A DNA stretch of 58,756 nucleotides, from contig CABYVU010000008.1 in NCBI GenBank assembly GCA_902522525.1, positions 1 to 58,756 on the forward strand, written 5' to 3'. Positions 55,203-58,619 of this stretch are shown piece after piece. The position numbers and the translations under genes were made by a program. Positions within the stretch are counted from its first letter, which is position 1. Each line of letters begins with the position of its first letter. The notes under the pieces were generated by a model. It was not told the DNA's origin. It ran no database searches and saw nothing but the letters and a program-made list of their open reading frames with translations. Source of the DNA: an uncultured Pelagibacteraceae bacterium (GTDB taxonomy: Bacteria; Pseudomonadota; Alphaproteobacteria; Pelagibacterales; Pelagibacteraceae).

Positions 55203-55859
55203 TTTACTATCCAAAATTTATTATCTATTCAAGCTTCAATCAAATCTAAATTATTAGAATTGAAAGAAAAAAAAAGAATACCTAAAATTATTGCAGTTTC
55301 AAAAACTTTTAAAATAGAACATATATTACCGTTAATAAATTATGGTCACATAGATTTTGGTGAAAATAAAGTTCAGGAAGCAGTAGAAAAATGGACAGAG
55401 ATCAAAAATAAAAATAATAAATTAAAATTACATTTAATTGGTAAGCTGCAAACAAACAAAGTTAAATTTGCGGTTAAAATTTTTGATTATATTCATTCTT
55501 TGGATAGTGAAAAATTGGCAAAAAAAATTGCAGATGAGCAAAATAAACAAAGTGTAAAACCTAAAATATTTATTCAAATAAACCTTGGTGAGGAAAGTCA
55601 AAAATCAGGAATATCAAAGAATGATCTCTCAGATTTTTACAATTTTTCTAAAAGTTTAGGTCTTGATATAGTAGGCACAATGTGTATCCCGCCTTTTAAT
55701 GAAGACTCTACCAAGTACTTTTCCGAAATGAATGAAATAAACAAAAAAATAAAATTAACAGACTTAAGTATGGGGATGTCATCTGATTATTTAAACGCCG
55801 TAGATTTTCAAGCAACATATTTAAGAATTGGGTCTAATATATTTGGCCAACGAAATTAG
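55197..55859 (+). CDS. YggS-family PLP homeostasis protein
   Basis: Pyridoxal-phosphate-binding protein of the PROSC/YggS family, which buffers PLP and affects amino-acid metabolism. The ATG at 55197 gives 220 residues with the PLP lysine K36 in IIAVSKTFK. FGENKVQEAVEKW, LHLIGKLQTNKVK, INLGEESQKSGI, LSMGMSSDYLNAV and RIGSNIFGQR are the family blocks. A longer frame reaching 55083 is a hydrophobic artefact. It overlaps the convergent L,D-transpeptidase-like gene by 4 nt. Confidence 0.95.
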   Translation: MHFTIQNLLSIQASIKSKLLELKEKKRIPKIIAVSKTFKIEHILPLINYGHIDFGENKVQEAVEKWTEIKNKNNKLKLHLIGKLQTNKVKFAVKIFDYIHSLDSEKLAKKIADEQNKQSVKPKIFIQINLGEESQKSGISKNDLSDFYNFSKSLGLDIVGTMCIPPFNEDSTKYFSEMNEINKKIKLTDLSMGMSSDYLNAVDFQATYLRIGSNIFGQRN

Positions 55860-56353
55860 TTTAACTTAATTTTTGTGTTTTTATTTATAAGTTTTAATAA
55901 TATTAAAAAATCTTTTTTTTTAAGCGCCACACAACCTAATGTTGGTTTGAATTTTTTTGTCAAATGGATAAAAATTGCACTACCTTTTCCAATTATTGGT
56001 TTTTTTGTGTTGTAGTTAATTGGTATTAAAAAATCATATTTGTAATCTTTTCTAAATAATTTTTCATAATGAACTTTCTTTTTTTTAATTTTGATTATTT
56101 TATTATAACTTTTTTTACTTTTAACATCATTACACCACCCCATATCTTTTTTGATTGGAATACATTTTAACTTAGTAGATGGCTTAACATGTCGATCTTT
56201 TCTATAATATAAATTTCCTAGTGAAAATATACCTTTTGGCGTTTTTTTATCCCCCTCAATCTTGTTTTTAATCAATCCCCTTTTACCAATTGAACATTTA
56301 AAAATAAAATCATCAAAAAGAAGTGTCTCTTTATTTTTTAAAATAATTGTCAT
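55856..56353 (-). CDS. L,D-transpeptidase (YkuD)-family protein
   Basis: A 165-residue protein with the YkuD catalytic block: H130 in AIFIHLTKK and the nucleophile C141 in PTLGCVAL, plus GDKKTPKGIFSLG at about 34-46. Such enzymes form 3-3 cross-links or anchor lipoproteins to peptidoglycan. No signal peptide is visible, which is unusual for a periplasmic enzyme and suggests non-classical export or a cytosolic role. Extremely Lys-rich. Divergent from the winged-helix regulator with 14 nt between starts. Confidence 0.88.
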   Translation of the reverse strand: MTIILKNKETLLFDDFIFKCSIGKRGLIKNKIEGDKKTPKGIFSLGNLYYRKDRHVKPSTKLKCIPIKKDMGWCNDVKSKKSYNKIIKIKKKKVHYEKLFRKDYKYDFLIPINYNTKKPIIGKGSAIFIHLTKKFKPTLGCVALKKKDFLILLKLINKNTKIKLN

Positions 56354-56367
56354 ATTCTTTATTATAT

Positions 56368-56922
56368 ATGAATAATCAAACTTTAGTAATTTATGATTTT
56401 AAAGTTTTATATGAAATTCTTACTGAAATTGAAAATTATTTAAACTTTAATTTAATTAAAATTAATAAATTAAAAGAACTTAATTCTAATTCATTAGAAA
56501 ATTATCTTGTAATATCGGATAAAAAGAAAAAAGATGTGGAGGAACAAATTATTGTTAACAAACTTCCAATTGATATTAATAAATTAATTGAAATTATTAA
56601 TATTAAATTTTTAAAGAAAAAATATAGTCAACAATCTGAAATAAATTTGGGAAATTATAAATTAAATTTAAATTCAAGGAGCATGCATAAAAATGGAATT
56701 AGTTTAAATTTAACAGAAAGAGAGGCAAATATTTTAATATTTTTAAATAATTCCCAAAAGCCCGTAAATATAAGTGAATTGCAGACTGAGGTGTGGGGGC
56801 ATAATTCAAAATTAGAAACCCACACAGTTGAAACACATATCTATAGACTAAGAAAAAAAATTAATAATATATTTAATGATAAATCTTTTATAAAGAGTTC
56901 AAAGTCTGGTTATATAATTTAA
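56368..56922 (+). CDS. Winged-helix (OmpR-type) regulator lacking a phosphoacceptor
   Basis: A 184-residue protein from ATG 56368. The C-terminal OmpR-type winged helix (about 95-184) is clear: LNLTEREANILIFLNNSQKP, VWGHNSKLETHTVETHIYRL and FIKSSKSGYII. The N-terminal 85 residues resemble only the end of a receiver and show no phospho-accepting Asp or acidic pair, so it is probably not phosphorylated. Target is unknown. It overlaps the ArfA-like gene by one nucleotide (TAATG) and is divergent from the YkuD gene. Confidence 0.85.
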   Translation: MNNQTLVIYDFKVLYEILTEIENYLNFNLIKINKLKELNSNSLENYLVISDKKKKDVEEQIIVNKLPIDINKLIEIINIKFLKKKYSQQSEINLGNYKLNLNSRSMHKNGISLNLTEREANILIFLNNSQKPVNISELQTEVWGHNSKLETHTVETHIYRLRKKINNIFNDKSFIKSSKSGYII

Positions 56923-57029
56923 TGAAAAAAAAAAATCTAATTGCAAAAGATTTATTATCACCAAAATATAAAAGTCGGGTTGTTAAACCTAAAAAAGGGA
57001 AAGGTAGTTTTAAAAGAAAAAAAAAATAA
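56922..57029 (+). CDS. ArfA-like alternative ribosome-rescue factor (35 aa)
   Basis: A 35-codon gene whose ATG overlaps the regulator stop (TAATG). The product reads LLSPKYKSRVVKPKKGKGSF through residues 11-30, then a basic tail. This matches the [20 protein letters not shown] region of E. coli ArfA (from memory), including the RV and KKGKGS elements. ArfA recruits RF2 to ribosomes stalled on non-stop mRNA. The protein is shorter than the approximately 55-72 residue E. coli form. A-runs of 11 (56925-56935) and 10 (57017-57026) bracket the ORF. Confidence 0.72.
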   Translation: MKKKNLIAKDLLSPKYKSRVVKPKKGKGSFKRKKK

Positions 57030-57032
57030 TTT

Positions 57033-57962
57033 TTAAAGCCTTGCACCTATCTGTTGTATAACTTTAGAAGACATCTCTGTGCCTTTGTCTAAACTCTCTT
57101 TAAGGGACATATTATTTACATGACCATGCAAAAAGCCTGCTGCAAAAAGATCACCAGCACCAGTTAAATCAACAATTTTAAGACCTTCTTTTATACCGCA
57201 TTGAACAACTTCATCTCCATTAATTGCAACTGCACCTTTTTCACCTCTTGTCAAAACAATTATTTTGTTAAGTGATTTAGAGAAATTAATTACTTCATCA
57301 AAAGATTTTGCATCTATTAGAGACATTATTTCTTGTTCATTCGCAAATGTGATGTCTAGTTTATTTTTAACTAATTCTAAAAAGTGAGGTTTGTGTCGAT
57401 CTACACAAAATTGATCTGATAGTGACATTGCAACTTTGTTAGCGCTTTGAATTGCCTTTTCAAAAGCTTTTTTTGGTTCTCCTTCGTCCCAAAGATAACC
57501 TTCTAAAAGTATAATGTCGCTGTGTTTAATAGCATCTGAACTGACATCATTTTCATTTATTTTTCCTGCAGTTCCCAAAAATGTACACATTGTCCTTTCA
57601 GAATCTGGTGTAACTAAAATCAAGCATGTTCCAGTGGGCAGTTCTTCTTTTTTTTTTGAATAAATATATTTAACGTTCTCCTGTTTCAAACCATCTTCAT
57701 ATTTACTACCAAGTTCATCATCATTAACTTTGCCTATAAAACCAACTTTATTTCCAAGTTGAGATAAGCCGACGATTGAATTTGCAACTGATCCTCCTGA
57801 TACTGTTTTTTCTATTTTAAGATTTGATAATAATTCTTTGAACTCTTTATCATCAAAAATTAATTTCATTGTACTTTTTGTTAAATTACTTTTAGTAATA
57901 AAGTCATCCTCTACTTTGCAAATTACATCTACAATTGCATTTCCAATTCCTAATATTTTCAT
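57033..57962 (-). CDS. PfkB-family kinase (adenosine kinase-like)
   Basis: A ribokinase-fold kinase of 309 residues. It has GIGNAIVDVICKVED at the start, the phosphate/sugar block SGGSVANSIVGLSQLGNKV, and the anion-hole motif DLTGAGDLFAAGFLHG with the catalytic Asp. Alphaproteobacterial members are usually annotated as adenosine kinases; the substrate is not provable here. It ends 3 nt from the convergent ArfA-like gene and starts 3 nt after nth on the same strand. Confidence 0.9.
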   Translation of the reverse strand: MKILGIGNAIVDVICKVEDDFITKSNLTKSTMKLIFDDKEFKELLSNLKIEKTVSGGSVANSIVGLSQLGNKVGFIGKVNDDELGSKYEDGLKQENVKYIYSKKKEELPTGTCLILVTPDSERTMCTFLGTAGKINENDVSSDAIKHSDIILLEGYLWDEGEPKKAFEKAIQSANKVAMSLSDQFCVDRHKPHFLELVKNKLDITFANEQEIMSLIDAKSFDEVINFSKSLNKIIVLTRGEKGAVAINGDEVVQCGIKEGLKIVDLTGAGDLFAAGFLHGHVNNMSLKESLDKGTEMSSKVIQQIGARL

Positions 57963-57965
57963 TGA

Positions 57966-58619
57966 TTATGCTTTCTTTGTTATAAGTGGTTTTTTTCTCT
58001 TAGGATAACAACTAGTACAGATTTTACAAGATAAACCATAACACTCTCTTGCCTTACAATACTCTCTTCCATAATAAATTATTTGAAGATGCAACTTATT
58101 CCAATACTTTTTTGGAAAAAGCCTTTTTAAATCTTTTTCTGTTTGAACTACATTCTTACCATTGGTTAAACCCCATCTTTGGGCCAGTCTATGTATGTGA
58201 GTGTCCACCGGAAAAGCAGCATGCCCAAACCCTTGGGACATCACCACACTAGCAGTTTTGTGTCCAACTCCTGGTAATTCCTCTAGCTGTTCGAATGTTT
58301 TTGGGACTTTTCCATTGTATTTTTCAACTAAAGTTTTTGATAAGTTATAAACACTTTTTGCTTTAATTCTAAAGATACCAATACTTCTTATTAGTTTTTC
58401 AATTTTCTTTCTTCCAAGTTTAACAAAATGTTCTGGCTTATTATATTTTGGATAAATATTTTTTGTAACATTGTTTACATTTACATCCGTACATTGTGCA
58501 GATAAAAGAACAGAAACCAATAAAGTAAATATATTTCTGTGTTTGAGAGGTATTGGTGTTTTTGGATAAATTTTATTTAATATCTTAAGAACAATTTTTG
58601 CTCTTTGTTCTTCGCTCAT
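57966..58619 (-). CDS. nth: Endonuclease III
   Basis: DNA glycosylase/AP lyase for oxidised pyrimidines. It has 217 residues. The HhH-Gly-Pro motif [20 protein letters not shown] and the catalytic Asp in [15 protein letters not shown] are intact. The C-terminal Cys cluster reads [17 protein letters not shown]: the spacing differs from the usual C-x6-C-x2-C-x5-C. It overlaps dapB by 3 nt (ATGA arrangement). Confidence 0.95.

Follow-up and report, generated by a model that had tools for sequence, protein, structure and literature searches.

A 35-residue protein of SAR11 bacteria that looks like a conserved, minimal member of the ArfA ribosome-rescue family

We have analysed a stretch of 58,756 nucleotides from an uncultured Pelagibacteraceae bacterium (contig CABYVU010000008.1), hereafter called the window, in which an initial annotation had proposed a 35-codon ArfA-like ribosome-rescue gene coupled to a regulator gene. 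The coordinates of this ORF have turned out to be exact, the TAA stop included, and the ORF encodes the peptide MKKKNLIAKDLLSPKYKSRVVKPKKGKGSFKRKKK, in which 16 of the 35 residues are K or R and no GGQ motif is present (Table 1). The start on the stop codon of the regulator was also as described, one base being common to the upstream TAA and to the ATG of arfA. The regulator carries its Trans_reg_C winged helix at residues 113–182, and the gene that converges on arfA from the other strand is one that we take to be sugar/adenosine-kinase-like.

Table 1. Features at the arfA locus, in positions of the window
Feature	Position	Strand	Basis or remarks
Winged-helix (Trans_reg_C) regulator, 184 aa, upstream of arfA	56368..56922	+	PF00486, 48.8 bits
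TAATG, overlap of regulator stop and arfA start	56920..56924	+	Sequence; −4 or −1 overlaps in 61/77 homologous loci
arfA, 35-aa ArfA-family protein	56922..57029	+	ATG start, TAA stop; PF03889 match; gapless alignment to E. coli ArfA
Basic segment KKGKGSFKRKK	56991..57023	+	Aligned to E. coli K33–G43; counterpart of the E. coli mRNA-channel stretch
Convergent kinase-like gene	57033..57962	−	ORF; end lies 3 bases past the arfA stop

The window contains 1384 stop-to-stop frames with a length of 20 aa or more, and when these were compared with residues 1–47 of E. coli ArfA, the arfA frame came out best with 20.7 bits, the runner-up having 5.4. The peptide itself gave 21.3 bits against the same residues (phmmer), as against 10.7 bits for the best of 5000 composition-preserving shuffles, which rules out a chance likeness through lysine content. 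It also matches the Pfam family PF03889 (ArfA) with 32.6 bits, above the gathering cut-off of 25.5, and the ArfA core that had been pointed out earlier (LLSP..., RV and KKGKGSF/KR) is borne out by these scores. Among PDB sequences, the single peptide found the E. coli ArfA chains at E 0.0014 over 33 residues without a gap (phmmer). A profile of 20 SAR11 homologues (A1), all 20 of which match PF03889 at E ≤ 0.01, found these chains at E 4e-6, and a mixed SAR11/phage profile (A2) found them at E 2.3e-8, together with weak matches to uS14, the best at E 0.034. The comparison of the A1 set with E. coli ArfA by hhalign gave 91%. The NCBIfam scan returned no match for the peptide, and likewise none for E. 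coli ArfA; the PHROGs scan gave two weak matches (E 0.0098 and 0.017), both to families of unknown function, and the Pfam scan contained no row for DUF7230 (PF23876). Judged by these sequence comparisons, the 35-residue SAR11 protein looks like a conserved member of the ArfA family.

The search of Pelagibacterales genomes with PF03889, which had been proposed as a check on the annotation, found matches in 115 of the 143 Pelagibacteraceae genomes of at least 90% completeness at E ≤ 0.01, and 62 of the 143 were above the cut-off. There was no match at E ≤ 0.01 in the other 28, and therefore some lineages do without arfA, assembly gaps aside. In a set of 41 genomes, 23 had a match to arfA at E ≤ 1, namely the genome of the window itself, 19 of the 24 genomes of the same genus and three genomes of another family, the last with weak matches. 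Among named contigs, at least 378 stretches were confirmed as homologues, and the best 80 are all titled Pelagibacteraceae or Candidatus Pelagibacter. Over the whole order, the SAR11 profile matched 240 of 297 genomes at E ≤ 0.1, 197 strongly (E 2.3e-10 or better) and 43 weakly (E 6e-5 to 0.1). In the class, PF03889 matched 12 of 385 genomes at E ≤ 0.01, nine above the cut-off, and three of the 12 belong to Pelagibacteraceae. Outside this family, six matches (L282, L285, L287, L288, L289 and L290) have a sequence like that of ArfA and lie in stop-to-stop frames of 49–168 aa, two (L291 and L292) seem to be false matches inside longer proteins, and one (L286) lies in a long frame.

In a published survey of 15,259 genomes, arfB is reported for 2,022 of the 2,376 Alphaproteobacteria and arfA for none of them, arfA being confined to Gammaproteobacteria, some of the Betaproteobacteria and a group of Bacillus (PMC11633108). 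The nucleotide models of that survey were built from annotated genes, and neither SAR11 nor Pelagibacter is named in its main text (PMC11633108). The survey may simply have been unable to detect the SAR11 gene. Our search of the literature on ArfA and ribosome rescue in SAR11, Pelagibacter and Alphaproteobacteria, which reached few subscription papers, did not bring up any account of an ArfA encoded on a SAR11 chromosome.

The gene order of the window recurs among the best 80 homologues. The regulator ends −20 to +54 nt from the arfA start in 74 of the 77 loci with enough upstream DNA, the deviating loci being L102, L123 and L156; three loci (L130, L131 and L134) end too close for the regulator to be judged and were left out of the 77. 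The convergent kinase is present in 79 of the 80 arfA loci, and in 68 of these the distance of its end from arfA is −17 to +30 nt. Upstream of the arfA start, a Shine-Dalgarno-like 4-mer was found in 28 of 80 loci (a raw count without a background rate), which would fit translational coupling. We have found arfA at the regulator/kinase site also in two other genera (G112 and G057), and at about 1–3.4 kb from the kinase in G041, G044, G055 and G179. When the regulator, the kinase and the segments 55856–56353 and 57966–58619 of the window were used as queries, none was found within the arfA loci of G041 and G044 or within the DUF7230-like loci described below. In all eight Pelagibacter genomes without a strong match that were examined (G042, G043, G046, G047, G052, G063, G106 and G118; loci L294 and L297–L303), arfA is cleanly missing, the kinase following the regulator directly and no degraded copies being present. 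Because the regulator persists in these eight genomes, it is not specific to arfA, and the idea of a regulator dedicated to arfA is unsupported. The coupling claimed by the initial annotation therefore stands as far as adjacency and overlap are concerned, but it does not extend to a specific partnership of the two genes; it is positional and probably translational.

In E. coli, arfA is made from non-stop mRNA because of an intragenic hairpin, and the product is tagged and degraded as long as trans-translation is not overloaded (PMC3989581, PMC8012679). The traits of this type of regulation, a hairpin before the stop and a hydrophobic tail, are absent from SAR11 arfA, a difference that concerns regulation and is not a trait of the protein family. 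The best 50-nt fold inside arfA reaches −5.7 kcal/mol in the window, in contrast to −28.6 in E. coli, and it is no better than the folds of its own shuffles (z 0.14), low G+C contributing to the weak folding. A set of 80 SAR11 homologues has a median of −4.75 and a minimum of −15.1 kcal/mol, and a set of 80 viral homologues has a median of −8.5 and a minimum of −20.2. No hairpin of the E. coli kind was found ahead of the stop, nor any terminator-like site at the arfA of the window. The idea that slippage on the A-run ahead of the stop provides a concealed non-stop mechanism is also unsupported, because the exact 15-mer AGAAAAAAAAAATAA occurs in 13 of the 80 homologues and the other common forms hold a G within the A-run. 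From the weak folds, the z of 0.14 and the lack of a terminator-like site, we infer that the non-stop feedback loop would be absent in SAR11 and that the protein would be synthesised without it.

The alignment pairs the peptide with residues 12–44 of E. coli ArfA, N5 corresponding to N14, L11 to L20, P14 to P23, Y16 to F25, R19 to R28 and V20 to V29. In the channel segment, K24–S29 corresponds to K33–S38, F30 to Y39 and R32 to R41, and KKGKGSFKRK pairs gaplessly with E. coli K33–K42. Residues K24, K25, G26, G28, S29 and R32, as well as N5 and L11, are invariant in the 20 homologues of A1. Residues 31–48 of E. coli ArfA are described as filling the mRNA channel and residues 21–30 as sitting in the A site (PMC5378476), and the A-site segment and the channel segment KKGKGS[YF]xRK are common to E. 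coli ArfA (YhdL) and the SAR11 form. As a prediction from this alignment, the channel-sensing half of SAR11 ArfA is well supported.

The two forms differ in length and in location. E. coli ArfA has 72 aa with a hydrophobic tail and is encoded between mscL and zntR, whereas the SAR11 form has 35 aa, no such tail and a gene behind the winged-helix regulator; it is shorter at both ends. E. coli residues 1–9 have no counterpart in the SAR11 peptide, which ends, in KRKKK, at the counterpart of K44, about three residues short of Asn47, a minimum that has been measured in E. coli only: the protein truncated to Asn47 was active and shorter forms were inactive, as reported in PMC5378476. The earlier comparison with the active, truncated E. 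coli protein is accordingly right about the missing hydrophobic tail, but the peptide, spanning about residues 10–44, stops before Asn47. In E. coli ArfA, L19, L24 and F25 constitute a patch that meets Trp319 of RF2 (PMC5378476), and the counterparts in the SAR11 peptide of this patch, defined from E. coli structures, are D10, K15 and Y16, with the aromatic residue kept. Because D10 and K15 stand at the positions of L19 and L24, residues 1–9 are lacking and the peptide ends at the K44 counterpart, the route of RF2 activation may be different from that in E. coli.

We have searched the genomes for the partners of such a protein. An alpha-type tmRNA was found in 35 of the 41 genomes, in 33 of them with more than the gathering score, and SmpB was found in 38; both ssrA and smpB, whose presence in the same genome had been suggested as a check, occur in the genome of the window. 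RF2 was over the cut-off in 31 of 41 genomes; it was not found in the genome of the window, which is 80% complete and has one release factor, of the RF1 type, whereas relatives have both RF1 and RF2. For the RF2 alignment we used the 23 RF2 among 30 release-factor loci, six of the others being RF1 and one a piece of RF2. All 23 sequences retain the residues W319 and F217 as well as the motifs SPF and GGQ, and the position of V198 holds I in 22 and V in one; the kept W319, F217 and V/I198 are probably general traits of RF2. The E. coli lineage and SAR11 are alike in having RF2 with Trp319 plus tmRNA–SmpB.

In Alphaproteobacteria the usual backup is ArfB/ICT1, which likewise has a backup rescue role (PMC11633108) and which has its own GGQ motif, unlike the SAR11 peptide. 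No ArfB-sized gene with an RF-1 domain was found at E ≤ 0.001 in 66 distinct Pelagibacterales genomes, which comprise the set of 41, many of them incomplete, and a set of 26, with one genome (G012) in both. The RF-1 domain frames of the 26-genome set are all of 345–369 aa, and a 151-aa frame in one genome of the 41-genome set (G007) carries the RF2 switch loop. In this respect, SAR11 differs from most of the Alphaproteobacteria surveyed, where arfB was reported in 2,022 of 2,376 genomes (PMC11633108). The peptide itself is ruled out as an ArfB by its 35 aa, its lack of GGQ and the absence of an ArfB-sized gene in the genomes scanned.

We consider it quite likely that the gene encodes a genuine minimal SAR11 ArfA. 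In the scheme that we propose, arfA would be translated by coupling to the preceding regulator gene and would end at an ordinary stop codon; the N-terminal half of the protein, bound to a non-stop ribosome, would lie at the decoding centre and recruit RF2, holding it in the open form, and RF2 in this form would release the nascent chain without a stop codon. SAR11 ArfA would then serve as the only backup to tmRNA–SmpB detected in these genomes. Expression of the gene and rescue activity of a protein of 35 residues are both predicted from sequence here.

A different possibility, to which we assign a low but appreciable probability, is that the peptide binds the ribosome as ArfA does and recruits RF1 as well, or recruits RF2 through other contacts. 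The replacement of L19 and L24 by D10 and K15, the lack of a counterpart to residues 1–9 and the presence of both RF1 and RF2 in relatives would all suit it, and there are precedents. BrfA of Bacillus and ArfT of Francisella, which we liken to the SAR11 protein by description only, are likewise small rescue proteins dependent on release factors; BrfA places a basic C-terminus in the mRNA channel and has N-terminal helices, which ArfA lacks (PMC6881298, PMC8012679). BrfA is reported to contact RF2 differently, and ArfT to work with RF1 or RF2; E. coli ArfA is described as selective for its partners (PMC6881298). Nevertheless, the peptide retains the aromatic Y16 together with the invariant N5 and L11, and RF2 retains W319, F217 and V/I198, even if the latter are probably common to RF2 in general.

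The question of whether arfA is maintained as a functional gene can be approached through its variation in 29 core codons of 80 homologues, all distinct and the best 80 of the at least 378 stretches. The mean pS is 0.63 and the mean pN 0.135, and the median dN/dS is 0.216, as calculated from the 532 of 3160 pairs with pS 0.1–0.5; since the homologues were collected by protein motif or profile, pN and the ratio are biased downwards, pS is little affected, and many pairs are near saturation. Two of the 3160 pairs have a pN that equals or exceeds pS. Variation is greatest at third codon positions, and none of 10000 permutations attained this excess. The ORFs, with the start chosen by us, have 34–42 aa (median 35) in 80 of 80 loci, and in all 80 an ordinary stop follows 5–13 residues past KGKGS, a motif largely fixed by construction in the motif- and profile-gathered sets of 80 SAR11 and 80 viral homologues. 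The frame and its length are thus conserved, as had been expected, with homologues in 19 of 24 genomes of the same genus, and the ratio of about 0.22, far from the value near 1 that would have spoken against a gene, indicates purifying selection.

Homologues of arfA are also found in phages. In IMG/VR, at least 194 stretches were confirmed as relatives, and the best 80 are frames of 33–94 aa (61 distinct), all with KGKGS, largely through the construction of the search. In one of them (L182), arfA follows immediately on one clamp-loader gene and is located two genes ahead of the second clamp-loader gene and a translation repressor; in a second (L193), the stretch that contains it is flanked by a helicase and SbcD/SbcC-like subunits; in a third (L174), it comes one gene after an endolysin, in a stretch that has a match to HTVC010P covering 60% of the query at 83% identity. 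For L185, L226, L235, L237 and L179, the neighbours were judged by likeness to these three and are replication/recombination genes or an endolysin.

Among named phages, gp30 of the pelagiphage HTVC027P has the same core as SAR11 ArfA, NPVAKEVRTPKYKSQIIKPKKGRGSFKR, and it has already been called ArfA in print (PMC12753301), as has a gene of a Citromicrobium phage (PMC8953757). Compared with SAR11 ArfA, gp30 (58 aa) and gp63 of HTVC034P (41 aa) have extra N- or C-terminal residues. Against PF03889, gp30 scores 20.2 bits, below the cut-off of 25.5; gp63 (L319:142-267), deposited as hypothetical, scores 25.7 bits, just above it. Neither tblastn of the 35-mer, in which we suspect the low-complexity filter, nor blastn of window positions 55800–58000 gave matches in the phage collection. 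When a 63-aa phage homologue was used as query, 86 phage records were returned at E ≤ 10, and the 40 of these that were listed include HTVC027P (7e-16), CRP-212 (2e-4), Cr30 (2e-3, two records) and HTVC034P (0.03), the remaining ones having E of about 3 or worse. Stretches of HTVC010P, HTVC008M, Mosig and S-MbCM25, chosen as named phages close by, contained no frame with the ArfA pattern.

The patchy occurrence within the family, the close homologues in phages and a length below that of the shortest E. coli truncation reported active (PMC5378476) might suggest that the gene is what is left of a longer arfA in decay, or that it came from a phage and is carried along without a function in the host. 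We regard this as very improbable, because pN is low against a high pS, the length stays within 34–42 aa in 80 of 80 loci, the same site is used in three genera and absence is clean, without degraded copies, in eight of eight genomes. Hardly any weight can be given to the view that the product is a small basic RNA- or ribosome-binding peptide, ArfA-like only through its lysine-rich composition, for which its 16 K or R residues and the weak uS14 matches of A2 could be cited, since it is largely refuted by the shuffles and has against it the gapless 33-residue alignment, the invariant non-basic residues N5, L11, G26, G28 and S29 and the curated Pfam cut-off that was passed.

Apart from the minimal SAR11 ArfA, we have observed frames that resemble it in part. 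DUF7230 (PF23876), a separate Pfam family of unknown function for which our literature search found nothing, has an N-terminal half NPxAKxLRTPKF like that of SAR11 ArfA and a channel segment three residues shorter (KKKYNRK in place of KKGKGSFKRK). Four frames (L326, L343, L347 and L348) end in KKYNRK or KTYNRK plus a few residues and all look ArfA-related; three of the genomes that carry them belong to genus g6 and the fourth (G195) to Pelagibacter, none having a strong match of the KGKGS type. Their scores against DUF7230 are 27.8, 27.0, 19.9 and 15.8 bits, of which two reach the cut-off of 27. In f2, a sister family of bacteria within the Pelagibacterales, a conserved frame of 41–44 aa (from the first Met) was found in 20 of the 23 genomes searched, most of which had been chosen for an earlier match. 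The N-terminal half of this frame reads NP[IV]A[KR][ED]LRT.K[FY], and its tail is different, without KGKGS; the loci L325, L327–L342 and L344–L346 have a basic tail such as ERKRVKIKV, with another tail in L339. In four of four loci with neighbours listed, the f2 frame abuts a gene that we presume, from a VTGAARGLGQ-type motif, to be short-chain-dehydrogenase-like, and a Pfam scan of three f2 peptides gave no match. Profile comparison of the mixed SAR11/phage set gave 96.8% with the DUF7230-like SAR11 frames and 96.9% with the f2 set, both without a shuffle control and with a likeness that is partly selected because the frames were found with the SAR11 profile. The DUF7230-like set compared directly with E. 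coli ArfA gave 61.7%, weaker than the 91% of the SAR11 set. Pfam DUF7230 looks related to ArfA on this evidence.

A wider view, which we put forward tentatively and hold to be possible, yet doubtful, is that ArfA is the core of a larger marine superfamily. On this view, SAR11 would have, in place of ArfB, either a reduced ArfA that lacks the non-stop feedback or a relative with another channel tail, of the DUF7230 type or of the ERKRVKIKV type of f2. The phages of SAR11 would carry the core as well, several of them amid genes of DNA replication, so that host ribosomes stuck on broken mRNA are released during infection, and DUF7230 would itself be a family of ribosome-rescue proteins.

Pelagibacteraceae are among the commonest bacterial families of the ocean. 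Most scanned genomes of this family contain arfA, with no ArfB seen there, and the published survey had arfA in none of its 2,376 Alphaproteobacteria (PMC11633108). That the hairpin is missing suggests a different regulation of rescue in these small genomes, and the phage copies point to ribosome rescue as a function worth carrying during infection.
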